From: Robiginitalea sediminis
GTDB taxonomy: Bacteria; Bacteroidota; Bacteroidia; Flavobacteriales; Flavobacteriaceae
DNA: 64,000 nt
Direction of reading: 5' to 3'
Assembly (NCBI RefSeq): GCF_002198115.1
Contig: NZ_NGNR01000001.1
Location: 1,353,332-1,417,331, forward strand
A model generated the notes under the pieces. The model was not told the origin of the DNA, did not search any database, and worked only from the letters and a program-made list of their open reading frames with translations. A program made the translations under genes and the position numbers. Shown in pieces: positions 18,126-34,027 of this stretch. The number at the start of each line of letters is the position of its first letter. Within the stretch, counting starts at the first letter, position 1.

Positions 18126-20288
18126 CTATCCCACCCGGATGGGCATACGATCGGGCCGCTGACCCGTTGCCCGCGTCACGGCATTGGCAATGGCGGCCCC
18201 TACAGGCCCCAATGGCGGTTCGCCAACAGGCCCTGGGGTATCCTTCCCTTGCAGCAGGACCACCTCGATTTCCCGGGGGGCATCCTTCATCAGCCCCATC
18301 CGGTATGGCCCGTACATGGAAGGGGTCAGTTGGCCGTCTACTACCTTCATTTCCTCAAAAAGGGCCGCGCTGAGCCCCATGTGGATGGCGCCTTCGCATT
18401 GGGCCTTTACCTGGTCCGGGTTTACGGCCAGGCCGGGGTCCAGCACACAAGTTACCTTGTGCAGCCGGATCTCCCCGTCCGTAACGGAAAGCTCCACGAC
18501 CTGGGCGCATGGGGTGCCCACATCTACCGAGGCAGCGAGGCCCATGGCACGCCCATCCCGGACTTCTTCTGTATACCGGGAAGTCTCCACCGCTTTTCGG
18601 ATCACGGCTTTCAGTCGCCTCCCTGCCGGGTCATCCGGTATATGCCGCAGTCGGAACCCTGCAGCATCCTGCCCGGCGAGGGATGCCATGTGGTCCATAA
18701 AACTTTCGATGGCAAAGGTGTTGGCCAACAGGCCCAGGCTCCGCCACCAACTGGTGGCAAACGGCAGGTCCACATGCCAGTAAACCGAGCGGTGGTTGGG
18801 AACGGCCCCGTACTGGAGGAACCCGCCCCGGACAGCACCTATATCTGCCCCGACCAGGGTGGGGACCCCCGGGGGCATCAGGGCGGAATCGTTACCTACA
18901 TCCCCGCTCACAAAATGGTGTTCGAGTCCTTCGAGGCTGCCGTCCGCGGCCAGTTTGCCCCGCAGGATGTGGTGGGTGGGCGGGCGGAACATGTCGTGCT
19001 GGAATTCCTCCTCCCGGCTGAAGATGTATTTTACGGGTTTACCCACTGCCCGGGACATCAGGGCAGCCTGAACGGCGTGGGGCGTATGGAGCCTGCGGCC
19101 AAAACCGCCCCCCAGGTAGGTGGGAACCACATTGACCTTTTCCTCCTCAAAGCCCAGGCTTTTGGCCACCTCTTTGCGGGTGAGGGCTACCACCTGGGTG
19201 GAAAGGATAACCGTGGCCCGGTCTGCCTCAACATGGGCGAGTGCCCCGTTGGGTTCCAGCTGTGCATGGGCCCCGATGGGACTCCTGAACTCCAGTTCCA
19301 CGACGTGATCCCCGTCCAGGCCGCGTCCCTCCTTCTGGATGATGGTGGACTTGCCATGGCCAACGGTCATCAGGGCTTCGATATCGGCTTGCTGCAGGTC
19401 CGAAGGGGCATCCCAGGTGACCTCAATGGCATTCTTGGCCCGCTCGGCCTGCGGGTAGGTGCGGGCTACAACCCCTACAAACCCGGCTTCTTCCACAATT
19501 TGAACCACCCCGGGCATGGAAACGGCCCGGGAGGTATCCGCGCTTACAAACCGGGCGCCAATCCGGGTAGGTCGCACCACCGCCCCATAGAGCATGTCCG
19601 GCAGTTCGGCATCCAGTCCGAAGATGGGATGGCCGAAAACCTTGGGCTCCAGATCTACGCGGGGCTCGGGCTTTCCGATATACCGGAAGGATTCCCTGGG
19701 TTTCAGTTTCGGGACTTCAGGGATGTCCCAGCTGGTTACTCCCTGTGCAGCCTGAGCATAACTCAGGCGTTTCTCTCCATACCGGAATATGCCTTCGGCA
19801 ACGGTAAGTGCCGCCGGGGAGGCATTCAGTTTTCCTGCGGCGGCCTCCCGTAGCATTTCCCTGAAGGTGGCGGCCAGGGACCGCAAGGGTTCCCAAAGCC
19901 CGGAGATAGAGGTACTGCCCCCGGTACTCATGCCGTCTATGTTCCCGGTTATGGTGGGGGCGTGGATTACCTGCAGGCGGGCTAAAGGGAATTCCAGTTC
20001 TTCGGCAGCCAGTTGTGCCAGGCCCGTAAAGGTGCCCTGCCCCATTTCCACCTTTGGGGAATACAGGACAATATGGTTGTCCGAAGTTAGTTCGAACCAG
20101 ATCATAGGGTTGTCGATTTCCCCTATATAGCTCATTTCCATTGTGTTGGCCATGGCCAGGATGGACCGGCGGATGGGGTTGCGCGCCAGGTAGGTCCCCA
20201 GGGCGAGGACCCCGGCCGTACCCAGACCGCCGCGGATGAGGAATTTCCGGCGGGATATCTTTTGGGTGTTGGTCTTGCGCCTGGCCAT
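18126..20288 (-). CDS. Molybdopterin-binding aldehyde/isoquinoline oxidoreductase beta subunit (IorB-like), Tat-exported
   Basis: This 720-residue protein belongs to the xanthine dehydrogenase molybdenum-cofactor subunits, closest in layout to isoquinoline 1-oxidoreductase beta. An N-terminal twin-arginine motif SRRKFL (12-17) and a hydrophobic stretch point to folded export. VEMGQGTFTGLAQLAAEEL and a second Moco domain with GGGFGRRLHT follow. The C-terminal VGEPPLGPVG contains the conserved Glu (about 690) that acts as base at molybdenum. The start at 20288 forms TAATG with the stop of the iron-sulfur subunit, giving strict coupling. Family members hydroxylate N-heterocycles or aldehydes; the substrate here is unknown. 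No cytochrome c domain is fused, so the electron acceptor is not evident. Confidence 0.93.
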   Translation of the reverse strand: MARRKTNTQKISRRKFLIRGGLGTAGVLALGTYLARNPIRRSILAMANTMEMSYIGEIDNPMIWFELTSDNHIVLYSPKVEMGQGTFTGLAQLAAEELEFPLARLQVIHAPTITGNIDGMSTGGSTSISGLWEPLRSLAATFREMLREAAAGKLNASPAALTVAEGIFRYGEKRLSYAQAAQGVTSWDIPEVPKLKPRESFRYIGKPEPRVDLEPKVFGHPIFGLDAELPDMLYGAVVRPTRIGARFVSADTSRAVSMPGVVQIVEEAGFVGVVARTYPQAERAKNAIEVTWDAPSDLQQADIEALMTVGHGKSTIIQKEGRGLDGDHVVELEFRSPIGAHAQLEPNGALAHVEADRATVILSTQVVALTRKEVAKSLGFEEEKVNVVPTYLGGGFGRRLHTPHAVQAALMSRAVGKPVKYIFSREEEFQHDMFRPPTHHILRGKLAADGSLEGLEHHFVSGDVGNDSALMPPGVPTLVGADIGAVRGGFLQYGAVPNHRSVYWHVDLPFATSWWRSLGLLANTFAIESFMDHMASLAGQDAAGFRLRHIPDDPAGRRLKAVIRKAVETSRYTEEVRDGRAMGLAASVDVGTPCAQVVELSVTDGEIRLHKVTCVLDPGLAVNPDQVKAQCEGAIHMGLSAALFEEMKVVDGQLTPSMYGPYRMGLMKDAPREIEVVLLQGKDTPGPVGEPPLGPVGAAIANAVTRATGQRPDRMPIRVG

Positions 20289-20773
20289 TACCGGGGATTT
20301 TCGGTTGAAGGGACGGCGAGCAATGCTGCGGCACGGTGGATGGCTTTTCGGATGCGCCCATGTGTGCCGCAGCGGCAGACATTGACGATATGCTGGTCGA
20401 TATCGGTATCGGTGGGCTGCGGGATTTTCTCCAGCAGGGCTGCTGCTGCCATTATAAAGCCGGGCTGGCAATACCCGCATTGGGGTACGATTTCCTCCAT
20501 CCAGGCCTGCTGTACCGGGTGGGGGGCATCCGGGGAGCCGAGCCCTTCGATGGTAGTGATTGTTTTCCCCACAACATTGGCCGCCGGATAACTGCAACAC
20601 CTAACGGCCTCACCATCTATCAGGACGGTACAGGCCCCGCATGCTGCGCGGCCGCAACCAAATTTAGTGCCCATAAGCCCCAGGGCGTCCCTGAGGACCC
20701 ACAGCAGGGGGGTGGCCGGGTCTTCCAGTTCCAGTTGCAAAGGGGCGCCGTTAAGGGTGCATTCCAGGGTCAT
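20288..20773 (-). CDS. (2Fe-2S) subunit of molybdenum hydroxylase (IorA-like)
   Basis: This 161-residue protein is the electron-transfer partner of the downstream Moco subunit. A plant-type [2Fe-2S] domain has Cys40, Cys45 and Cys48 in [13 protein letters not shown] with Cys59/60. The second, helical cluster uses Cys99 and Cys102 (QCGYCQPGF) and Cys133 and Cys135 (VCRCGTH). Both clusters are complete. It has no export signal of its own and would be carried out with the Tat-targeted partner, as known for this family. Translation of the two genes is coupled through TAATG. A dedicated third (FAD) subunit is absent, which fits the IorAB two-subunit type. Confidence 0.95.
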
Positions 20774-24663: not shown

Positions 24664-25257
24664 TTACAAACTCCATCGGTTCCCGACTTCAGAAACCGGG
24701 ATACAGCCGTTATAGGCCCCAGGGATCGGATCGTAGCTCAGGACGTTTTCGCCTATTTCTTCCGAGCTGAAATACGCCCAGATCAGGGTGGATTTAAACT
24801 GCCGGTAGAATCCGATGGGTGCTTCTTCGCCCACAGGGGTGCCCCATACGCTAATCCTGAATTTACCGTCCTCCTGTTCGGCCTGCTTCAGGACTTCGTG
24901 ACGGCGGTCCTGGGAAAGTTCCGCAAAAACAGCCCCGAAAGCCTCTTTACAATGCGCGTCGAAACCCGCAAATGCATACCGCATACCCTCTTTTCCCTCA
25001 GGGTCGAAGGATTTTGCAATAAGGCGGTCTATAAAGATGTCGACTTTTACATCCAGGGCCCCGGGGGTATCGGTACGGGGGAGGATGGTATCGGCAAGGG
25101 ATGCCACCAGTGCCGCTTCGGCCGGAGTAAAGAACAAGGGGGTCCAGTCCAGCCTTTTTTCGGATTGGCATGCCTGGAGAAGTGAAAGGGCAGAAGGCAA
25201 GGCCAGGGAGGCGCTGGCAAGGAGGCCGGTAGTCTTAAGGGCTTTTCTACGGTCCAT
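24664..25257 (-). CDS. Gluconate 2-dehydrogenase subunit 3-like small subunit, Tat lipoprotein
   Basis: This 197-residue protein belongs to the small (gamma or hitch-hiker) subunits of membrane-bound FAD sugar dehydrogenases. An RRK motif at residues 3-5, a hydrophobic region and LQAC with Cys30 suggest a Tat signal ending in a lipobox. The core has LFFTPAEAALVASLADTILP, the family signature. In characterised enzymes this subunit carries the signal-less GMC subunit across the membrane. It starts by TGATG overlap with the stop of the GMC gene, so the two are translationally coupled and most likely form one complex. Confidence 0.92.
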   Translation of the reverse strand: MDRRKALKTTGLLASASLALPSALSLLQACQSEKRLDWTPLFFTPAEAALVASLADTILPRTDTPGALDVKVDIFIDRLIAKSFDPEGKEGMRYAFAGFDAHCKEAFGAVFAELSQDRRHEVLKQAEQEDGKFRISVWGTPVGEEAPIGFYRQFKSTLIWAYFSSEEIGENVLSYDPIPGAYNGCIPVSEVGNRWSL

Positions 25258-26963
25258 CAGAGGTTGAATTTTTTGAGTTCAGAAACGGCGTGGTGTGCGG
25301 CGCGGGCGCTCAGGGCCATGTACGTAAGGGATGGGTTGACACAAGAGGAGGAGGTCATGCAGGCCCCGTCGGTAACGTACACATTTTCCGCCCCAAACAC
25401 CTGGTTGTGGGCATTGAGGACCGCGGTTTTGGAGCTGTGCCCCATCCGGGCAGTCCCCATTTCATGTATGCCATAACCCGGTTCGTGTTCCTTGTCGAAT
25501 CCTTCGACATCCTTCAGGCCTGCGCGTTCCAGCATCTCCACGGCATCTATCCGGATTTGCCGGTTGATGGCTTTTTCGTTTTCCTTAAACTCGCAGTCAA
25601 TGGCTAGGGTTGGTTGTCCCCATTTGTCCAGGACGTCGGGATTCAGGCTTACTTTGTTTTCGTGGTAGGGCAGGCATTCTGCGAACCCTGTGATAAAGAA
25701 CTCCCAGGGCCCGGGTTTGAGGATGGCATCCTTGTAGTCTGCTCCGAATCCTTCCATGTTGGCTGCCGCCTGTATCCCGCCACGGCTCCCGCCACCCTGG
25801 AACCCGAAGCCCCGCACAAAATCCTGTGACCGGGTGGTGTCGTCCAGGTTCCAGTAACGGGGGATGTAGATCCCGTTTGGCCTGCGCCCGCTGTAGGTTT
25901 CATTTTCAAAACCGTCCACCCGGGCTACGGCACCAATGCGATAGGTATGGTCCATCAGGTTGTGTCCGAGTTCCCCGCTGTCGTTGCCCAGGCCGTTAGG
26001 AAACCGGTTGGAAGTGGATTGCATCAGGATCTGGGTGGAACTCAGGCAGGAAGCATTGCAGAAAATAACGCGGGCGTGATATTCCAGGGCTTCGCCTGTT
26101 TCGGCATCGATGATGCGCACCCCAGTGGCCTTGCCCTTGTTTTCGTCGTAAATGATGGATTGTGCGATAGAGAAAGGCCGGATGGTCAGGTTGCCCGTGG
26201 CGTGTGCGGCGGGCAGGGTGACGGCATTGCTGCTGAAATAGGCCCCGTAGGGACAGCCCCGGCTGCAGCGGTTGCGGTACTGGCACTGACCCCTCCCGTT
26301 CAAGGGTTGGGTCAGGTGGGCCACCCGCCCAATAATCATATGCCTTCCCGGGAAGGCGCCCTCTATCCGCTCCTTCACGTGTTTTTCCACACAGTTCATT
26401 TCCATGGGGGGCAGGAAATGGCTGTCCGGCAGTTGGGGCAGCCCCAGGGCCTCCCCGCTAATCCCGGCAAACTTTTCCACATAGGTGTACCAGGGTTCTA
26501 TGTCTTTGTAACGGATGGGCCAGTCCACACCGAAGCCGTCTTTGGCATTGGCCTCAAAATCCAGGTCGCTCCAGCGGTAGGTCTGTTTGCCCCATAGAAG
26601 ACTCCGTCCTCCCATCTGGTGGGCCCTTACCCATAAAAAGGGTTTTACTTCCGTGTACGGGTTTTCCTGGTCATTGGCCCAAAAGTGCTCCGTGCTTTTT
26701 CCGATGAATCCGGTTCGTATGGCTTTATAGTGCCTGGCCTTTTCTTCCGGGGTTAGGGCCTCCCGGAGATTCATGTCCCAGGGGTCGTCGTTCATGGTGG
26801 GGTAATCCACCACGTGTTCTACCAGGCGCCCGCGTTCCAGGACAAGAGTCTTCAGGCCCTGTTCGCATAATTCCTTTGCAGCCCAGCCTCCGCTGATGCC
26901 CGAACCGATGACAATGGCATCGTAAGTCATCTCTTTGCGGGCATCAATATTGTAGTTTGCCAT
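25257..26963 (-). CDS. GMC-family FAD sugar dehydrogenase catalytic subunit with Cys-x5-Cys-x3-Cys motif
   Basis: This 568-residue glucose-methanol-choline oxidoreductase has the FAD-binding loop GSGISGGWAAKEL at residues 20-32. The catalytic pair is likely His500 (YGIHEMGTARMG) and Asn543 (SCVNPSLTYMAL). Cys227, Cys233 and Cys237 have the C-x5-C-x3-C spacing that holds a [3Fe-4S] cluster in bacterial FAD glucose dehydrogenases. It has no signal of its own; the start at 26963 (MANYNIDARKEMTYDAIVIG) puts the FAD loop near the N-terminus, and a longer in-frame reading adds only low-complexity residues. Export would rely on the coupled small subunit. Glucoside 3-dehydrogenase or glucose/gluconate dehydrogenase activity is plausible; the substrate is unproven. 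Confidence 0.93.
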   Translation of the reverse strand: MANYNIDARKEMTYDAIVIGSGISGGWAAKELCEQGLKTLVLERGRLVEHVVDYPTMNDDPWDMNLREALTPEEKARHYKAIRTGFIGKSTEHFWANDQENPYTEVKPFLWVRAHQMGGRSLLWGKQTYRWSDLDFEANAKDGFGVDWPIRYKDIEPWYTYVEKFAGISGEALGLPQLPDSHFLPPMEMNCVEKHVKERIEGAFPGRHMIIGRVAHLTQPLNGRGQCQYRNRCSRGCPYGAYFSSNAVTLPAAHATGNLTIRPFSIAQSIIYDENKGKATGVRIIDAETGEALEYHARVIFCNASCLSSTQILMQSTSNRFPNGLGNDSGELGHNLMDHTYRIGAVARVDGFENETYSGRRPNGIYIPRYWNLDDTTRSQDFVRGFGFQGGGSRGGIQAAANMEGFGADYKDAILKPGPWEFFITGFAECLPYHENKVSLNPDVLDKWGQPTLAIDCEFKENEKAINRQIRIDAVEMLERAGLKDVEGFDKEHEPGYGIHEMGTARMGHSSKTAVLNAHNQVFGAENVYVTDGACMTSSSCVNPSLTYMALSARAAHHAVSELKKFNL

Positions 26964-27267
26964 TCGTATTGGGTTAGGTGATCCCCAAGATACGAAATTG
27001 GAATAAAGGTAGGGGGGAGGTTTGTGGCGGGACTGCTTTTGCCTTGCATTCCTGAGTTGTAAGTTTTCTGCGGGCGGGGTTGGGGCCCCGCCCAAAGCCG
27101 TTACACAACCTTACAGTCTCTGTACCCCAGTACCACACCCCATCCCGAAACAGGCGCTCTCCATAGTGTTCACATGGAGGTATTAGCAATAACCCACATA
27201 GTTTTTCTGGGATTTCAGAATGGCACTTAATTGGGTAGTCCCCTTAGATCTTGTTCTGTTGGGAGAA
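26964..27267. other. Intergenic region with a G+C-rich inverted repeat, no gene seen
   Basis: This 304-base stretch lies upstream of the GMC gene. I see no convincing coding frame. GGGCGGGG (27072-27079) and CCCCGCCC (27086-27093) form an 8-bp stem with a 6-base loop but no T run on either side. A weak -7-like box, TATCTTGG on the minus strand (26992-26985), could serve the GMC gene. The stretch CCCATCCCGAA near 27140 recalls 5S rRNA, but nothing else there does. Confidence 0.5.
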
Positions 27268-27777
27268 TTACCGGAACCGGTTTTCAGGGAAGGTGTAAAG
27301 GATGCCGATATTGGCAGTGGCCCATTCAAAACCATCTACTGCAATGCCTGTGTAGGATACGCTTATTTCGGTCTGTGGGCCAAAGAGGAAGCCCAGGATA
27401 GGCTTGTAATAAACCCCGCCCTCGTTGCCGTCATTCAACCCCAGGGCATATCCGCCATCAATTCCAAAGGAAAAGGAATTGGAGGGCCAGATGCGCACGC
27501 TGGCGGCCAAGGGAAGAAACTGTACACTGGGCAGGTCTATCCCCCCGCTGTCGAACTTTTCAGGGAATCCGTGGATGTAGCCCAGCATGGGCCCAAGGTC
27601 TACTACCTCCCCAAGGGCAAACATATATCCGGTATCAATCCCGGCTACCAGGCTTACGGCGTCGTTGGCATCGCCGGCAACAGGAAGGGATCCGTGTATA
27701 CCGAGTTTAAACCCCTGCTGGGACTGCAGGGCACCAAAACAGCTCAGAAATAGGAATGTCCAGACAAATCGGTTCAT
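27268..27777 (-). CDS. Small outer membrane beta-barrel protein, function unknown
   Basis: This 169-residue protein has a signal peptide (to about residue 20, ending ALQSQ) followed by alternating hydrophobic/polar beta strands rich in Gly, Tyr and Phe. Examples are FKLGIHGSLPVAGDANDAVS, GFLFGPQTEISVSYTGIAV and the last strand ANIGILYTFPENRF with a near-terminal aromatic. This is the pattern of eight-stranded OmpA/OmpX-like barrels. No specific family is recognised. It follows folE on the same strand after 95 bases, and no clear terminator separates them, so co-transcription is possible. Confidence 0.72.
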   Translation of the reverse strand: MNRFVWTFLFLSCFGALQSQQGFKLGIHGSLPVAGDANDAVSLVAGIDTGYMFALGEVVDLGPMLGYIHGFPEKFDSGGIDLPSVQFLPLAASVRIWPSNSFSFGIDGGYALGLNDGNEGGVYYKPILGFLFGPQTEISVSYTGIAVDGFEWATANIGILYTFPENRFR

Positions 27778-27872
27778 AAGGTCAGTTTGTCCCTATAAAC
27801 GCGTCATGGGAAATTTATTGCTCCTTACCAGGAGGTTTTGTTGTAAAAACCGGGAAAAAAGGGGTTTTGGGG

Positions 27873-28556
27873 TTAGTCTGCCAGAAAACTGCGGAGCTGG
27901 GCCTGGGTTTCCGGGTTCAGGAAGGCCCCACCGTAAAAGGCGGTAACCGTGGAGGAATGGTCGTCCTGGATTCCCCGGGAGGCTACACAAAGGTGTTTGG
28001 CGTCAATGATAACGGCCACATCTTCGGTGCGCAGGAGTTGCTGCAGGTCTGCCCCGATCTGGTTGGTCATGCGCTCCTGGACCTGGGGCCTGCGGGCATA
28101 ATAATTCACAATCCGGTTCAGTTTGGACAGGCCGATGACCTTGCCACTGGAGATGTAAGCAATATGCGCTTTTCCGAAGATCGGGACAAAATGGTGTTCA
28201 CAATTGGAATAGAACCCGATATGCTTCTCCACCAGCATCTGCCCGTATTGGTATTTGTTTTCGAACAAACTGGCTTCGGGGCGGTTCTCCGGGTTAAGGC
28301 CTGCAAAGATTTCATCTACATACATCCGGGCCACCCTCCCGGGGGTTCCCTTCAGGGAATCGTCGGTGAGGTCCAGGCCAAGGGTTTCCATAATCTGCCC
28401 GAAATGGTAGGCGATGCGCGCTTTTTTTTCGGAGTCTGAGAGGTCAAAAGCATCAGGCCTGAGTGGGGTCTCCATCCCTGAAGGCAGGTGGTCGTCCCCG
28501 TAGAGGTCGTGGCTATGGCCGTTGAGATTCTTGGCTTTGAGTATGGAATCGATCAT
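27873..28556 (-). CDS. folE: GTP cyclohydrolase I FolE
   Basis: FolE converts GTP to 7,8-dihydroneopterin triphosphate, the first step of tetrahydrofolate (and related pterin) synthesis. The 227-residue protein has the zinc ligands in YSNCEHHFVPIFGKAHIAYI (Cys and two His) and the Cys of DAKHLCVASRG. GLSKLNRIVNYYARRPQVQE and ERMTNQIGADLQ complete the active site. The N-terminal 40 residues (to about DAFDLSD) are a variable extension. A 57-residue gene ends 26 bases upstream on the same strand and probably shares its transcript. Identification is firm. Confidence 0.97.
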   Translation of the reverse strand: MIDSILKAKNLNGHSHDLYGDDHLPSGMETPLRPDAFDLSDSEKKARIAYHFGQIMETLGLDLTDDSLKGTPGRVARMYVDEIFAGLNPENRPEASLFENKYQYGQMLVEKHIGFYSNCEHHFVPIFGKAHIAYISSGKVIGLSKLNRIVNYYARRPQVQERMTNQIGADLQQLLRTEDVAVIIDAKHLCVASRGIQDDHSSTVTAFYGGAFLNPETQAQLRSFLAD

Positions 28557-28582
28557 TGGGCGTGTCTTTAGGCAGGGTTAGG

Positions 28583-28756
28583 TCAGGATTGGCTTTCCAG
28601 GGCTTTGATTTGGTCCATAACCGCTTCGGCCTCGGCATACTTGGCATCGCCCTGGCTGCGGTTTACCTGGGAAAGCCGGTGAGCTTCTCCCATAAGCTTG
28701 CGATAGCGGCGCTCCAGTTTTTCCTTCTGGGAAGTCGATTTAAACCATCCTAACAT
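28583..28756 (-). CDS. Small charged helical protein (Lacal_2735-like family)
   Basis: This 57-residue reading frame starts with MLGWFKSTSQKEKLERRYR and has AHRLSQVNRSQGDAKYAEAE in the middle, then a short helical tail. It resembles a family of very small flavobacterial proteins annotated as Lacal_2735, identified by their WFK start, the KLxxxYxxLMxEA helix and the SDAKYAEAE-type segment. The function of that family is unknown. It contains no signal peptide and no cysteine, so a cytoplasmic location is likely. It ends 26 bases before folE on the same strand, suggesting co-transcription. The conserved pattern and normal codon use support a real gene despite its size. Confidence 0.8.
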   Translation of the reverse strand: MLGWFKSTSQKEKLERRYRKLMGEAHRLSQVNRSQGDAKYAEAEAVMDQIKALESQS

Positions 28757-28875
28757 ATCACCTTGGATTTGTAGGGTCCAAAGTAGGTATTATGTTTAAC
28801 AATAAATGTTAAAGATTAAACAAAATTTGATTTACGGAGGTAACCCCAGCCGTCACTCCACGAGGAAGGGGGGCC

Positions 28876-29856
28876 TCAGGGGAGGAGGTCCTCGGGGCGC
28901 AGTTCTGGTTTATAGACCTGTCCGAAGCCCGAATTGTTTGGGGCGTATGGTCTAACAGGCTCCAGGTTGGGATTTTCAGGGACGGGAAGGTCGAGCCCCC
29001 ACGCGATGCCATTCAGGGCAAGCCTGCGCATGTTGGGGTCCTTCCAGTCATAGGGATGCCCCAGCGTGGTAAAGAATACCCGGGCGGCTTTCCCGGCCTC
29101 CCCCGTATACGTCTTGGTCCAGGCAACGGGATTGGTTAGGGGGTACTGGTCGGTTTTGCCGGCCTCTTCATGTGCCGATCGTAAAGCCTGCCCGGTCAGC
29201 AAAGGGCGCGAATCGCCATATAGCTGCCACTCCCCGCCGTCCACATGGTAGAGCCAGGAGTATGCCTGGAAGGGTTCAACCCCGCCGAGGATGGGATGGT
29301 TGCCACCCTCGGCCACGGAAACCGAGGTAAGCGGGGCGCGCCCATCGTCGAAATGCCCGTGGTGGGTAATCCATTGCTGCCCAAATACGCGGGTGGGCCA
29401 GTCGTTGTTCATATGGGTATATGCGGAGGAATCGGGATAGAGGAAGGCATGGGTTGCCGTGCGGAAACCGACCATGGGTTTTCCGGATTCGGCGAATGCG
29501 GTAATCCGGGAAAGTTCTTCCGGCGGGAGGGCTCGGAAACGGGTGAAGAGGACCATCAGATCGGCGCTGTCCAGGGCTTCCAGTCCCTGGATATGGTCCA
29601 GGCGGTTCGGGTCGATAACCCCTGCGGAGTCCACCGAAAAACAAAGGGTTACCCGGGCCCCCAATTCTCGTTTTACCAGCCCGGCCAGCATCGGCATGGA
29701 CTCTTCGGAACGGTATTCTTCATCCCCGATTACAAAGACGATATGCGGGGTGCCTTCACCCTGCTTGCTGGCATCAGTTTTGGATACGGCCTCACCGCAA
29801 GCAACCAACAGGAACAAAATCATCAAAAAGAGGAAGGGGTGGAGCGCTTTGTTCAT
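28876..29856 (-). CDS. ThuA-like domain lipoprotein
   Basis: This 326-residue protein begins with a lipoprotein signal (lipobox LVAC, Cys20), then a ThuA-like class I amidotransferase-type fold. Signatures are HIVFVIGDEEYRSEESMP at about residue 38, GKPMVGFRTATHAF near 125, and HHGHFDDGRAP with the later GHPYDWKDPNMRRLALNGIAWGL. ThuA of rhizobia acts in trehalose use through 3-keto-sugar intermediates; exported ThuA-like proteins of Bacteroidota are mostly uncharacterised. It starts 5 bases after the giant cytochrome fusion gene ends, so both belong to one operon. Location at the outer face of a membrane is inferred from the lipobox. Confidence 0.9.
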   Translation of the reverse strand: MNKALHPFLFLMILFLLVACGEAVSKTDASKQGEGTPHIVFVIGDEEYRSEESMPMLAGLVKRELGARVTLCFSVDSAGVIDPNRLDHIQGLEALDSADLMVLFTRFRALPPEELSRITAFAESGKPMVGFRTATHAFLYPDSSAYTHMNNDWPTRVFGQQWITHHGHFDDGRAPLTSVSVAEGGNHPILGGVEPFQAYSWLYHVDGGEWQLYGDSRPLLTGQALRSAHEEAGKTDQYPLTNPVAWTKTYTGEAGKAARVFFTTLGHPYDWKDPNMRRLALNGIAWGLDLPVPENPNLEPVRPYAPNNSGFGQVYKPELRPEDLLP

Positions 29857-29861
29857 GGGTA

Positions 29862-32800
29862 TTACTTTAATTCATCAGTATGGTAAAAGCCTTTTTTGTC
29901 TTTTTCTGCTTCCCGTATCTCCGAAACGACCCCGGCAGAAACGGGTGCTGCCCGGTTCCCGAAAGCATTGCGGACATAAGTCAGGACCGCAGCTATTTCC
30001 TCATCGGTCAGGAGGCCCTCAAACGGAGTCATGGGCACGGTTCCATCATAGGCGATGGCATTGATCATAAGCGGGCCCTGCAAGCCTTTTAAAGTAACTT
30101 TTATCAGCCGTTCTTCTGGGCCGCTGACCCATGAGCTATTGGCCAGGGGCGGAAACCCCGAACCCGGGAGCCCTTGTCCATCCTCCTGGTGACAAGTTAC
30201 GCAGAAACCGTCTCGCATGTAGATCTCCCGCCCATTTACAAAGAGCAGACTATCACGGGCGTTAAAACCTTCGGGCACCGGAATCTCCATTTTTTCCACA
30301 TCGTTTTCCCGCTGACCCGTAATGCGGCGGTTTACGGCCAGGAAGGGATCTTGATTCCAAGTATCCAGGCCCGACCTGAGCAGGGTTTCCATAATGGTTT
30401 TCGCCTCGGCGTCCGGCAACCAGGAGGCAGCGGCCAGGACTTCCATACGCACCCTGCCATGGGGGTCTGCGGCAGCGGAAAGCAACAACCCGGGTGCCTC
30501 TTCAATAACATGGGTGTTGTAGCGCACTGCACGTACTGCAGCGGCCCTTACCCTGTGGTCCGTGGAGGCCAGCAAGTCGCCCAGCAATGCGGTATCGACG
30601 CGGTTGGCCCCCCAACTCACCCAAAGGGCCTCCAGGCGGTGGTGTTCCGAATCTGGGTCTTCCGGGTCAATTTCGCTGAGCCATTTGGTCAGGGCTTCCA
30701 TTACCCTGTCCGAATCCCTGCCCCTGAGTGCCCGCCGAGCCCGGTAACGGGTCCGGTAGTCGGGGTTTTTCAGCAGCTCGAGCAATGCCGCCGTACCTGC
30801 CCCGGCGACCTGTGCCGGCACGGTGGTGGCACGGTCGGTCCGGCTGATCCTGTAAATCCGCCCATGGCTGTGGTCGCGGTAGGGGTCACGGGCGTTGTGT
30901 TGCATATGGCCCACCAGCATATTGTGCCAGTCGACTATATAGAGGGTCCCGTCCGGTGCAAATTCGAGGTCTACCGGGCGGAAGTTCCGGTCCGAGCTCT
31001 GCAGCAGGTCCTGGCGGAATTCCAGGCGGTACCCGGTGCCGTCCTCGACTACCTTATGCTGTTTGATCCCCAGAAACCCTATGCTGTTGCACAGCAGGAC
31101 ATCTCCCTGTACCTCTTCGGGGAAATGGCGGCTCGAAACGAATTCCAGGCCGGCGGTGGGCCTGACCTTATGCGCGTCGGGTACCAGGTCTGCCGGAAGG
31201 GGGTGGGATACGCCGTACTCCGGCTGGATTGTCCCGGGTAGCATCCACCGCAGGGCCGGGCCGGAGGTGTCCAGGAAAAACGGCTGCCCCCATCGGTCGA
31301 AGGCGATCCCCCAGGGGTTGGGGATGGGGAGCTGGGCCGTGCGCTCCAGGTGCTGGCGTCTGGGGTTGTACCGGTAGAACCCGCCCTGGGTACCCCTTAC
31401 CGTACCGTACGGGGTCTCCACATTGGTGTGCAGGAAGGTGCCCTCCCCCATATAAATGGCCCCGCTTGGGTCTGCCGTGTAGGCGCTAATGGCATGGTGG
31501 GTATCGTGGTCGTCGAATCCGCTCAGGAGGATTTCCTCTTGGTCTGCACGGTCGTCCCCATCGGTGTCCGAAAGTCGTTTGAGGTGGCTGCCCTGGGAAA
31601 CATATACCCCCTCCGGGCTTAGCTCGAAGCCCACTGGCAGGTGGAGGCCGTCTGCCCAGACCTTCAGGGTGTCGGCACGGCCATCCTGGTCGGTGTCCTC
31701 CAGGATGATCAGTTTATCGTTGGGCCGGGAATCCCCGGGTTTATAATGCGGATAGGAGGGCATAGTGGCCACCCAGAGACGACCCGAGTCGTCGAAGGAG
31801 AGCTGAACCGGATTAGCCAGCTCGGGGAATTCCCGCTCCGAGGCAAAGAGTTCTATGGTATACCCCGGAGCAAGGGTAAAGGACGCCAGGGCATCCTCCC
31901 CATAAAGATAGCCGGAGCCATGCCCGTAGGTCTCGGGTTGGTAGTTGGAGGTAACTTCCGGAAGCACCCGGGTACGGGCATCTGCCGCAGCCAGGTCGAA
32001 GGCCTCCCCCCTGGCGGCGGCCCAGATGGCGGTATCCCGCACCGCGGTCATCTGGCGGATTTTTTCGAGTTCGAACGGGTAGTTGTCCGGGCCAAAGGGG
32101 TCGTACCGCCGCCCGAAGACATGTACCCCGTTCGGGATTTTGAAGTCGTTTTCCCAGAACCAGTTCTTTTCCTGTACCGCCTGGAGTATTTCCGGGTTGG
32201 GTGTGTTGGTGTCCCGGAGCCCGAAAAGAGCCTCCGCCAGGTGTGCTGCCAGTTTGCGGTTGCCCAGTTCGTTAAGCTGTAACCCGTCTATGGTATGGGG
32301 CTCTTCGGCCCTGTACCAGCCTTCTGAAGCGTGGTACAGGTCCACGAAAGGGACGTCCATTTCCGAAGCCACCCGCTGCATCATCGCCGTGTGCGCTTCC
32401 AGCTTTTGGTTAGCGGCTTTAAAGTCCGGGAGTTCCGCCTCGGTAATGCCTTCCTCCAGGGCCGTGGGGGAGAGCAGGACCAGGAAGGGCGTGCTGTTGC
32501 CGTTATAGGCCTGGGCCCGGGTATGGGTTATAAAGGCCCGGAGTTCCTCTTCCGAAACGGCTTGGTAGCCCTCTGGGCGAAGGGCTTCGCTATACCCGAA
32601 AAACGCCAGGAGGAGATCGGCCTGTAAGCGGGTCAGCCATTGGTCCGGGGTCTCCAGGTGTCCTTCGCTCCCGGAAGGCGGGTAGAGCCCGGAAAGCAAG
32701 GCTTCCGCCTGGGGGAAAGCCCATGGGCTGTTCCTACCGGAATGGGGCCGGAAGCCCGGGGTGTTGCCCCCGTCCCCCATATTCCGGATGCGCAATAGGC

Positions 32801-32996
32801 TGTCCGGGAAGGCCTGCTGCAGGGTGGCCTCAAAAAGGCCGTACTGCATCATGCGGGAAGGCAGGTTGTTGCCAATAAGCACCAGGGTATCCCCTTTGCG
32901 GATGGGGACCAGCGGCTGGTTTCGGTCACAGGCTGCGGCCAGGACAAGCAGGCCGGCGAGGTACCCGAGGATTCGGGTCCGGGAGGTAACGTGCAT
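29862..32996 (-). CDS. SGNH-like / PVC-type propeller / HEAT / cytochrome c fusion lipoprotein
   Basis: This protein has 1044 residues from the ATG at 32996, which yields a signal with Cys23 (VLAAAC). Domains in order: an SGNH-hydrolase-like part (about 35-320), a PVC-type membrane-bound dehydrogenase beta-propeller (about 360-735) with DTDQDGRAD and DTDGDDRAD calcium-like loops, HEAT-like repeats (about 744-875), and a c-type cytochrome domain with CVTCH at 932-936 and probable axial Met989 (VPMTP). Such proteins are widespread in Planctomycetes, Verrucomicrobia and Bacteroidota and are thought to be exported dehydrogenases, but the substrate is unknown. The SGNH block I reads LIGNNLPSRM, so the usual Ser nucleophile seems absent. 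It is co-transcribed with ThuA. Confidence 0.9.
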   Translation of the reverse strand: MHVTSRTRILGYLAGLLVLAAACDRNQPLVPIRKGDTLVLIGNNLPSRMMQYGLFEATLQQAFPDSLLRIRNMGDGGNTPGFRPHSGRNSPWAFPQAEALLSGLYPPSGSEGHLETPDQWLTRLQADLLLAFFGYSEALRPEGYQAVSEEELRAFITHTRAQAYNGNSTPFLVLLSPTALEEGITEAELPDFKAANQKLEAHTAMMQRVASEMDVPFVDLYHASEGWYRAEEPHTIDGLQLNELGNRKLAAHLAEALFGLRDTNTPNPEILQAVQEKNWFWENDFKIPNGVHVFGRRYDPFGPDNYPFELEKIRQMTAVRDTAIWAAARGEAFDLAAADARTRVLPEVTSNYQPETYGHGSGYLYGEDALASFTLAPGYTIELFASEREFPELANPVQLSFDDSGRLWVATMPSYPHYKPGDSRPNDKLIILEDTDQDGRADTLKVWADGLHLPVGFELSPEGVYVSQGSHLKRLSDTDGDDRADQEEILLSGFDDHDTHHAISAYTADPSGAIYMGEGTFLHTNVETPYGTVRGTQGGFYRYNPRRQHLERTAQLPIPNPWGIAFDRWGQPFFLDTSGPALRWMLPGTIQPEYGVSHPLPADLVPDAHKVRPTAGLEFVSSRHFPEEVQGDVLLCNSIGFLGIKQHKVVEDGTGYRLEFRQDLLQSSDRNFRPVDLEFAPDGTLYIVDWHNMLVGHMQHNARDPYRDHSHGRIYRISRTDRATTVPAQVAGAGTAALLELLKNPDYRTRYRARRALRGRDSDRVMEALTKWLSEIDPEDPDSEHHRLEALWVSWGANRVDTALLGDLLASTDHRVRAAAVRAVRYNTHVIEEAPGLLLSAAADPHGRVRMEVLAAASWLPDAEAKTIMETLLRSGLDTWNQDPFLAVNRRITGQRENDVEKMEIPVPEGFNARDSLLFVNGREIYMRDGFCVTCHQEDGQGLPGSGFPPLANSSWVSGPEERLIKVTLKGLQGPLMINAIAYDGTVPMTPFEGLLTDEEIAAVLTYVRNAFGNRAAPVSAGVVSEIREAEKDKKGFYHTDELK

Positions 32997-33049: not shown

Positions 33050-34027
33050 TTAAGCCTCTGAGCTGGTCGGCTTTTGAGAGGCGGAAATGTGGTTGGCAAT
33101 GAGCCGGGCGTGGTCGCGGGAGTTTTCGATGAACCACTTGTGGGTTTCCATCCCCCCGCAGATCACCCCTGCCAGGTAGAGCCCCGGCACGTTGGTTTCC
33201 ATGGTTTCCGGGTTGTAGTGCGGCCGCTTTTTGCCATCCTCGCTGAGGTCGATGCCCGCCTGTTCCAGAAACGCAAAATTGGGTTGGTATCCGGTAAGGG
33301 CCAGGACGAAGTCATTTGGCAATTCCACCCGCCCATCAGGGGTGTCTATCAGCAGGCGGTCCGGAAGCACTTCTGCCACCGTACTGTTGTAAAAGGCCTT
33401 TATACTGCCTTCCTCAATGCGGTTAAGGATATCCGGCCGGACCCAGTACTTTACCCGCGTTCCGATTTCCGGGCCCCTTACGATCATGGTGACTTCGGCA
33501 CCTTTTCGCCAGCACTCAAGGGCGGCATCTACCGCAGAGTTGCTGGCCCCTACTACGGCCAGTTTCTGGCTGGCATAGAAGTGGGGGTCTTTATAGTAAT
33601 GGGATACCTTCGGCAGGTCTTCCCCGGGAACCCCCAGCAGGTTGGGCAGGTCGTAGAACCCGGTAGCGATGATTACATGGCCCGAATGGTACTCCGCCTT
33701 ACTGGTCCCGATATGGAACCCACCGGCCTCCCGCCGGATCGCGGTGACCTCCTCAAAAAGGTGGATGTTGAGTTTGTTGGAGGTGACGATGCGGCGGTAA
33801 TATTCCAGGGCCTCGTTGCGCTTGGGTTTCGCTTCCTTGCTGATAAACGGTATGTCGTCGATCTCCAAGCGTTCCGAGGAGGAAAAAAACTGCATGTTAA
33901 CCGGATAGTTGAACAGGGAGTTCACGATAGGGCCTTTTTCCAGGATGAGGTAGGAGAGCCCCTTCTTCTGGGCTTCCAACCCGCAGGCAATCCCAATTGG
34001 TCCTCCTCCAATGATTATCAGGTCCAT
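33050..34027 (-). CDS. ypdA: YpdA family FAD-dependent oxidoreductase (putative bacillithiol disulfide reductase)
   Basis: This 325-residue flavoprotein has the FAD loop IIGGGPIGIACGLEAQ at the N-terminus, the NADPH loop LAVVGASNSAVDAALE near residue 165 and the C-terminal motif VPGLYLAGVICGGMETHKWF. YpdA enzymes of Firmicutes reduce oxidised bacillithiol, and many Bacteroidota also make bacillithiol. No CxxC redox pair is present, which fits YpdA and excludes thioredoxin reductase. The downstream fusion gene begins 53 bases after its stop and could be read from the same promoter. Identification of the family is firm; the in vivo substrate is inferred. Confidence 0.9.
   Translation of the reverse strand: MDLIIIGGGPIGIACGLEAQKKGLSYLILEKGPIVNSLFNYPVNMQFFSSSERLEIDDIPFISKEAKPKRNEALEYYRRIVTSNKLNIHLFEEVTAIRREAGGFHIGTSKAEYHSGHVIIATGFYDLPNLLGVPGEDLPKVSHYYKDPHFYASQKLAVVGASNSAVDAALECWRKGAEVTMIVRGPEIGTRVKYWVRPDILNRIEEGSIKAFYNSTVAEVLPDRLLIDTPDGRVELPNDFVLALTGYQPNFAFLEQAGIDLSEDGKKRPHYNPETMETNVPGLYLAGVICGGMETHKWFIENSRDHARLIANHISASQKPTSSEA

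Follow-up and report, generated by a model that had tools for sequence, protein, structure and literature searches.

LacABC-type enzymes contain a GMC flavoprotein dehydrogenase and its small subunit, and ThuA proteins act in 3-keto sugar chemistry. In the available parts of the respective papers, LacABC is described as a lactose 3-dehydrogenase together with a DUF1080 route (PMC9007349), cytochrome c is given as the acceptor of a glucoside 3-dehydrogenase (PMC9915066), BT2158 is given as a periplasmic glycoside 3-dehydrogenase (PMC11300592), and a ThuAB trehalose route is named in S. meliloti (PMC3518184). A further group is the TIGR02604/DUF7133 family of PVC-type heme-binding CxxCH proteins, in which a propeller is combined with HEAT repeats and a cytochrome c domain. 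Lac161_ORF7 (AGW45552), from a Verrucomicrobia soil clone, is reported as a beta-galactosidase that released glucose from lactose, and the authors, in the available text, recognized no resemblance to any known glycoside hydrolase (PMC5342196). Here we examine positions 24664 to 32996 of a window of Robiginitalea sediminis DNA (the whole stretch analysed, 64,000 nucleotides of contig NZ_NGNR01000001.1), where the genes for a GMC pair, a ThuA-like lipoprotein, and a propeller/cytochrome c lipoprotein, called PVC-cyt below, are found on the minus strand.

We propose that two sugar modules lie side by side here, both extracytoplasmic and separable from each other, a reading to which we give a probability of roughly 0.47, slightly short of even. 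Module A consists of two lipoproteins, ThuA and PVC-cyt, whose genes are 5 bp apart. The propeller of PVC-cyt may bind a sugar or sugar derivative and oxidize it, the electrons would then pass to the c-type haem at the C-terminus of the same protein, and ThuA would act on the oxidized product or on its precursor. Module B would be an orphan paralogue of those glycoside dehydrogenases that pair a GMC protein with a small subunit, probably exported via the Tat-like signal that its small subunit carries. The pair of ThuA and PVC-cyt is the less understood and the more interesting of the two. The original prediction, made from the letters of the window, had drawn all of these parts into one route that oxidizes sugars outside the cytoplasm. 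Its theme of extracytoplasmic sugar redox chemistry is likely right, as both sets look extracytoplasmic and come from families acting on sugars.

All of the parts named in that prediction are present on the minus strand, as determined from the sequence and from Pfam and NCBIfam matches. PVC-cyt (29862..32996, 1044 aa) is placed in the TIGR02604/DUF7133 family by scores above both curated cut-offs (DUF7133, 233 bits, cut-off 27; TIGR02604, 216.3 bits, cut-off 122.2), and also matches HEAT_2 (33.5 bits) and Cytochrom_C (38.5 bits). The ThuA-like protein (28876..29856) matches PF06283 at 42.6 bits (cut-off 33.4), the weakest of the four ThuA matches in the genome, and its predicted fold resembles 4e5v, a ThuA-like structure (Z 19.7, 227 residues, 3.5 A), and 1t0b (Z 18.3); a search of its profile against PDB sequences gave no match at E 1. 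By score and predicted fold together it is assigned to the ThuA family. It shares its fold with S. meliloti ThuA and differs from it in being a lipoprotein by its start, in its low family score, and in having PVC-cyt rather than a ThuB dehydrogenase as its partner. In module B, the small subunit (24664..25257) belongs to the Gluconate_2-dh3 family (PF13618, 111.9 bits, cut-off 23.4), and its start, MDRRKALK..LLQAC, combines a twin arginine with a lipobox. The GMC dehydrogenase (25257..26963; GMC_oxred_C 71.8 bits, GMC_oxred_N 46.7 bits) has no signal peptide of its own, and the two genes overlap by one base, so that the window, like LacABC-type loci, has the GMC and its small subunit as an overlapping pair. 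Signal peptides and lipoboxes were judged by eye throughout. Gaps between genes were computed with starts at 26963 (GMC) and 32996 (PVC-cyt), for both of which longer frames exist.

The partnership of ThuA and PVC-cyt was followed through 100 genomes of the family, 19 of which are less than 90% complete or more than 5% contaminated (genomes and loci are numbered G and L below). PVC-cyt has an orthologue in 10 of the 100, the own genome included (56-60% identity, E 1e-100 or better). For ThuA, whole-genome searches covered the family sample and the own genome; it has relatives in 8/100, again including the own genome (40-62% identity, E 1e-40 or better), and all eight genomes fall among the ten with PVC-cyt. 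In seven of the eight, both genes are on one contig: they adjoin in the own genome, G026, and G075, and are less than 10 kb apart in G032, G011, G001, and G050. The eighth, G037, is fragmented and has them on separate contigs. At the E 1e-40 cut-off no ThuA was found in G018 and G080; a lower-scoring homologue lies beside the PVC-cyt locus of G018 (L173).

The same pairing is seen beyond the family. At least 575 relatives of PVC-cyt were confirmed, and the best 80, nearly all from Bacteroidota, were taken as named loci; they come from Saprospiraceae, Cyclobacteriaceae, Flavobacteriaceae, Chitinophagaceae, Rhodothermales, others, and one Calditrichia metagenome-assembled genome. The flanks of 28 of these loci are cut, and at least two (L143 and L173) repeat genomes of the family sample (G026 and G018). 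In all, 33/80 loci (24 of 52 when only those with full flanks are counted) have a ThuA homologue no more than 10 kb from PVC-cyt, compared with about 2/80 expected from the density of ThuA in this genome, a crude yardstick. The homologue sits directly downstream, on the strand of PVC-cyt, in 13 loci and adjoins it in some other arrangement in 3, with four small overlaps among these. A GMC is found in a single one of the 80, at 30% identity. The recurrent partner of PVC-cyt is ThuA and not the GMC pair, and the part of the original prediction that joined ThuA to a cytochrome-bearing propeller is borne out. Additionally, contig 11 of the own genome encodes a 1133-aa protein with a lipoprotein-like start (L209:3276-6677) in which ThuA, GSDH, PKD, and cytochrome c domains are joined, so that parts of these kinds occur naturally fused. 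While the protein families themselves are known, no publication linking ThuA with the PVC-cyt family was found among the matches listed in a search of the open-licence literature, which does not cover subscription papers.

The GMC pair does not share this linkage. A GMC of the window type (73% identity or more) occurs in 6/100 family genomes (own, G011, G075, G032, G018, and G037, where it is split into two contig fragments of 77% and 68% identity). In all five of these that belong to other genera, the GMC and PVC-cyt genes lie apart, by 908 kb in G032, whose genome is a single contig, and on different contigs in the other four; G037 is broken over contigs, so that a distant link is possible there. 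In the genus sample (10 genomes, of which G105 is only 74% complete), PVC-cyt occurs in five, the GMC in five, and both in four, and these four keep the order PVC-cyt, ThuA, folE, GMC. Each pair also occurs alone: G107 has the GMC and its small subunit at this place with no PVC-cyt in the genome and no ThuA in the stretch, and at the same site G104 carries PVC-cyt and ThuA but neither GMC nor small subunit. From these two patterns and the unlinked copies in other genera, it follows that the modules are two separable units, and one fixed route through GMC, ThuA, and PVC-cyt is not supported.

Module B also differs in its surroundings from other GMC loci. The window-type clade (73-88% identity to the window protein, other full-length GMC matches having 63% or less) is separated in a tree in which its 9 rows lie on one side of a branch with an SH-aLRT of 99; the tree included 25 further loci, was built with a fast model, has a very long outgroup branch, and leaves out the G037 fragments. 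The pair with a Gluconate_2-dh3 small subunit is kept in 10/10 clade loci (that of L093 was found by tblastn). The window GMC is 57-58% identical to two GMCs at a canonical 3-keto locus elsewhere in the own genome, where TIM barrel, MFS transporter, Gfo/Idh, and DUF1080 genes surround them; a fourth GMC lies beside TIM barrel, Gfo/Idh, and, by reading, SusC/SusD-like genes, and the genome has nine DUF1080 domain matches in all. No DUF1080, TIM barrel, Gfo/Idh, or MFS gene was detected in the ten clade stretches (7.7-22 kb, with one of only 7.7 kb), whereas such neighbours accompany 18/20 other GMC loci (the exceptions are L186 and L197; Fisher 2e-6). The profiles used were home-made and could overlook divergent members; Pfam confirmed the seeds taken from loci of the own genome. 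The 20 comparison loci are the best-scoring non-clade loci, one per genome, rather than a random draw. Because the clade lacks these neighbours and 18/20 others have them, the GMC pair is likely a glycoside dehydrogenase outside the usual pathway loci. Unlike LacABC-type loci, the window-type GMC has no adjoining DUF1080 gene, and no separate cytochrome c gene was found with it. The latter is a weak test: a hidden Markov model of the PVC-cyt haem domain matched only PVC-cyt near the clade GMCs and nothing near 22 other GMC stretches, and it missed a cytochrome domain in L069 that Pfam detects. The adjacency of GMC and ThuA alone is insufficient to infer a 3-keto pathway.

The domain structure of PVC-cyt bears on what module A may do. 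A structure model (mean pLDDT 83.7, pTM 0.85) and profile matches give the order SGNH (~32-270), DUF7133/TIGR02604 propeller (~370-725), HEAT (~735-895), and cytochrome c (~913-1012). Conservation was read from an alignment of 49 rows that draws on 48 of the 77 loci with an intact frame; G037, which is broken over contigs and has a stop in its PVC-cyt frame, was left out. The haem site (Cys932, Cys935, His936, and Met989) is complete and identical in 49/49 rows, with Met989 as the putative axial ligand. The best structural matches of the propeller are sugar dehydrogenases that use pyrroloquinoline quinone (PQQ), namely 3a9g (Z 23.0, 3.0 A, 285 residues), 2ism (22.3), and 7cgz (22.1). Their lead is modest: lactonase-type folds score 21.5 and below, the AA12 enzyme 6h7t scores 20.5, and other propellers reach 20-21. 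The propeller profile gave a best E of 0.1 against PDB sequences, and a profile-profile alignment with a GSDH protein matched over 27 columns only. With these PQQ aldose/glucose dehydrogenases and AA12, PVC-cyt shares, besides the propeller fold, two active-site columns in a bridging MAFFT alignment of low identity: His501 stands in the column of the catalytic His of sGDH and Asn560 aligns with the quinone-side Asn, both in 49/49 rows. We take Arg228/Asn229 of sGDH to be the quinone-side pair. In the available text on CcPDH, the catalytic His is His144 in sGDH and His363 in CcPDH, and Arg430-Asn431 of CcPDH are at the PQQ quinone (PMC6881789).

The N-terminal SGNH-like domain, which was overlooked in the original prediction (Lipase_GDSL_2, 26.8 bits, below the cut-off of 32.9), sets PVC-cyt apart from the TIGR02604/DUF7133 family; no SGNH match was found in the four other DUF7133-matching proteins of the genome, one of which is itself below the DUF7133 cut-off. 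Its predicted fold resembles 7br2 (Z 20.7, 263 residues, 3.4 A). In what we take to be the DGLH motif, Gln240 replaces the His (aligned to 1yzf, 2hsj, 7bxd, and 3mil), and in what is presumably block I, placed by eye and reading GNN, Asn44 stands in place of the Ser, each in 49/49 rows. An active SGNH esterase or hydrolase was rejected, since the catalytic His and, by eye, the catalytic Ser are lost.

Part of the PVC-cyt genes follow an operon-like run of sugar genes, called the sugar operon here. In 13/80 named loci, PVC-cyt is preceded by relatives of all five genes of this operon, which encode an AP_endonuc_2 TIM barrel, a levoglucosan-dehydrogenase-like Gfo/Idh protein (347 bits against a cut-off of 650), a zinc-dependent alcohol dehydrogenase, an SDR protein, and an IolG-like Gfo/Idh protein, the families being read on one representative, the G018 copy. 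Genes for a psicose-3-epimerase-like barrel (158 bits against a cut-off of 300) and for an MFS transporter are often part of it. Among the nine other family genomes with PVC-cyt, five have the operon before that gene (G080, G050, G018, G032, and, over two contigs, G037), and in G075 PVC-cyt and ThuA are preceded by a gene for DUF1080 (168.5 bits) and one for Gfo/Idh. Genes resembling rhaM were seen near PVC-cyt in 7/80 loci and amidohydrolase genes in 2/80; an L-fucose route, prompted by these genes, was dropped for want of a substrate-specific match. As a separate observation, the sugar operons of L106, L135, L168, and L173 contain a second, divergent PVC-type protein (26-39% identity to PVC-cyt), encoded downstream of a rhaM-like gene that adjoins PVC-cyt.

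Several observations weigh against the reading as two modules with an oxidizing PVC-cyt. ThuA is absent from the available flank of 47/80 named loci, and 67/80 are without the five-gene operon. The only assayed protein found with a TIGR02604-HEAT-cytochrome description is a reported lactose cleaver, as far as the available text goes (PMC5342196). Unlike the PQQ sugar dehydrogenases, PVC-cyt has a fused cytochrome c and has Pro559 in the column of the quinone-side Arg (49/49 rows), so that the PQQ site is incomplete, and outright membership among the PQQ dehydrogenases was dropped for this reason. The gene pqqE scores below cut-off in this genome, as it does in all 14 control genomes, which leaves the search with no positive control; PQQ could be imported. 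As to separability, PVC-cyt is present in each of the six family genomes that have a clade GMC (Fisher 1.8e-7, uncorrected for kinship). The lack of co-occurrence that would have refuted the original prediction is therefore not fully borne out, although the sets are unlinked outside the genus and each is found alone once within it. The association within the genus has a p of 0.21. A tree of pnp, built from 50 genomes out of the 98 that had a match (an outgroup and those that scored nearest, with one rank skipped), gives two supported independent pairs for GMC with PVC-cyt (five on all branches) and none opposite, too few for significance. Finally, in G018 (L069:8702-14515) the GMC pair adjoins another DUF7133-HEAT-cytochrome protein (L069:11096-14515; DUF7133, 105.7 bits). 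Our first choice for PVC-cyt is still a sugar-oxidizing haemoprotein with unusual or absent PQQ.

The explanation that survives best beside this one is that the two modules are adjacent by chance, at a variable spot between kept genes that gains and loses sugar genes. It has somewhat less than an even chance of being right, and, as it concerns only the position of A beside B, it is compatible with the two-module reading. The kept flanks are pnp-rpoD-rpe-YpdA on one side and NDH-2 with a molybdenum hydroxylase on the other, and the same flanks enclose different fillings in G102, G106, G107, and G104; in G107, genes for an alpha-L-fucosidase and an aldehyde dehydrogenase (L096:11281-14093) stand where relatives carry PVC-cyt and ThuA. 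Chance adjacency does not account for the partnership of ThuA and PVC-cyt, however, and the G018 case hints that GMC genes beside DUF7133 proteins may be non-random.

Alternatively, PVC-cyt may cleave glycosides in the manner of a beta-galactosidase, with the cytochrome in a regulatory role or assisting a redox-dependent cleavage, and with ThuA handling the released sugar. We consider this unlikely, if deserving of attention. It draws on the reported activity of Lac161_ORF7 and on the match of the propeller to lactonase folds. The assay of Lac161_ORF7 measured released glucose, however, and the protein is a putative relative of PVC-cyt, described with the same TIGR02604-HEAT-cytochrome architecture; unlike for PVC-cyt, no SGNH domain is mentioned in the available text (PMC5342196). 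Hydrolysis alone would also leave the fused cytochrome c unexplained.

A bolder form of the oxidative reading of PVC-cyt is that it and ThuA make up a haem-linked, two-lipoprotein sugar-processing system that is present across the Bacteroidota; its propeller, which is not a standard PQQ site, would oxidize a glycoside, and cleavage of the glycosidic bond would follow from this. This is speculative and rather improbable as a whole. If true, oxidation-driven cleavage would explain how a relative could be scored as a beta-galactosidase without similarity to glycoside hydrolases. Relatives of PVC-cyt are numerous, and no settled function was found for them. Taken together, the partnership with ThuA, the operon of sugar genes, the natural fusion, and the reported lactose activity of the relative lead to a concrete hypothesis on the enzyme, one open to test by simple assays.

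A single, perhaps looser route, in which the GMC would carry out the extracytoplasmic sugar oxidation, ThuA would handle the resulting keto product, and the electrons would go to PVC-cyt or to some other DUF7133-cytochrome protein, was set aside as the primary explanation on the linkage tests and is retained as a distinctly doubtful rival: the shared order in four genus genomes, the presence of PVC-cyt in every GMC-clade genome of the family sample, and the G018 neighbour speak for it, while the lack of linkage in 5/5 genomes outside the genus, the occurrence of either pair alone within it, the absence of 3-keto genes from the clade stretches, and the genes and gaps that intervene in the window speak against it. 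Some DUF7133-cytochrome protein is present in 5/10 clade GMC stretches and in 0/20 other GMC stretches (p 0.0018, uncorrected), but four of the five are from one genus and outside it the count is 1/5 (p 0.2), so that the excess reduces to about two independent cases. The G018 protein is 63% identical to a protein of the own genome (L214), which by reading keeps the same mnmA-like and nitronate-monooxygenase-like neighbours as L069 and has no GMC beside it.

The intervening genes are also on the minus strand. A gap of 319 bp separates ThuA from folE and contains a 57-codon DUF6435 gene (28583..28756; PF20027, 27.2 bits, cut-off 26.9), with similar frames of 71-72 codons seen by reading at that place in G102 and G106. 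The folE gene itself (27873..28556), for GTP cyclohydrolase I (197.6 bits; NF006824, 261.7 bits, cut-off 202), is regarded as a bystander. A gene for a barrel-like hypothetical protein without a Pfam match (27268..27777), assigned to neither module, lies 304 bp from the GMC gene and has a counterpart at this site in G102, G107, and G104. Immediately upstream of PVC-cyt, a gene for a YpdA-family putative bacillithiol disulfide reductase (33050..34027, minus strand; TIGR04018, 486.6 bits, cut-off 339.9) is a neighbour without a shown link to it. Promoter and terminator scans mark no transcript borders in this region, with 12 terminators against 14.1 expected, 25 TAnnTTTG motifs against 23.65, and 8 sigma-70-like promoters against 4.7 (standard deviation 2.1). 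On the far side of the GMC pair, the window encodes a molybdenum hydroxylase large subunit and its iron-sulfur small subunit (18126-20773; MoCoBD_1, MoCoBD_2, and Fer2_2). Divergent relatives of this large subunit (28-30% identity) adjoin the GMC pair in G100, G102, G106, and G107, and in G104 one is located beyond the barrel gene.

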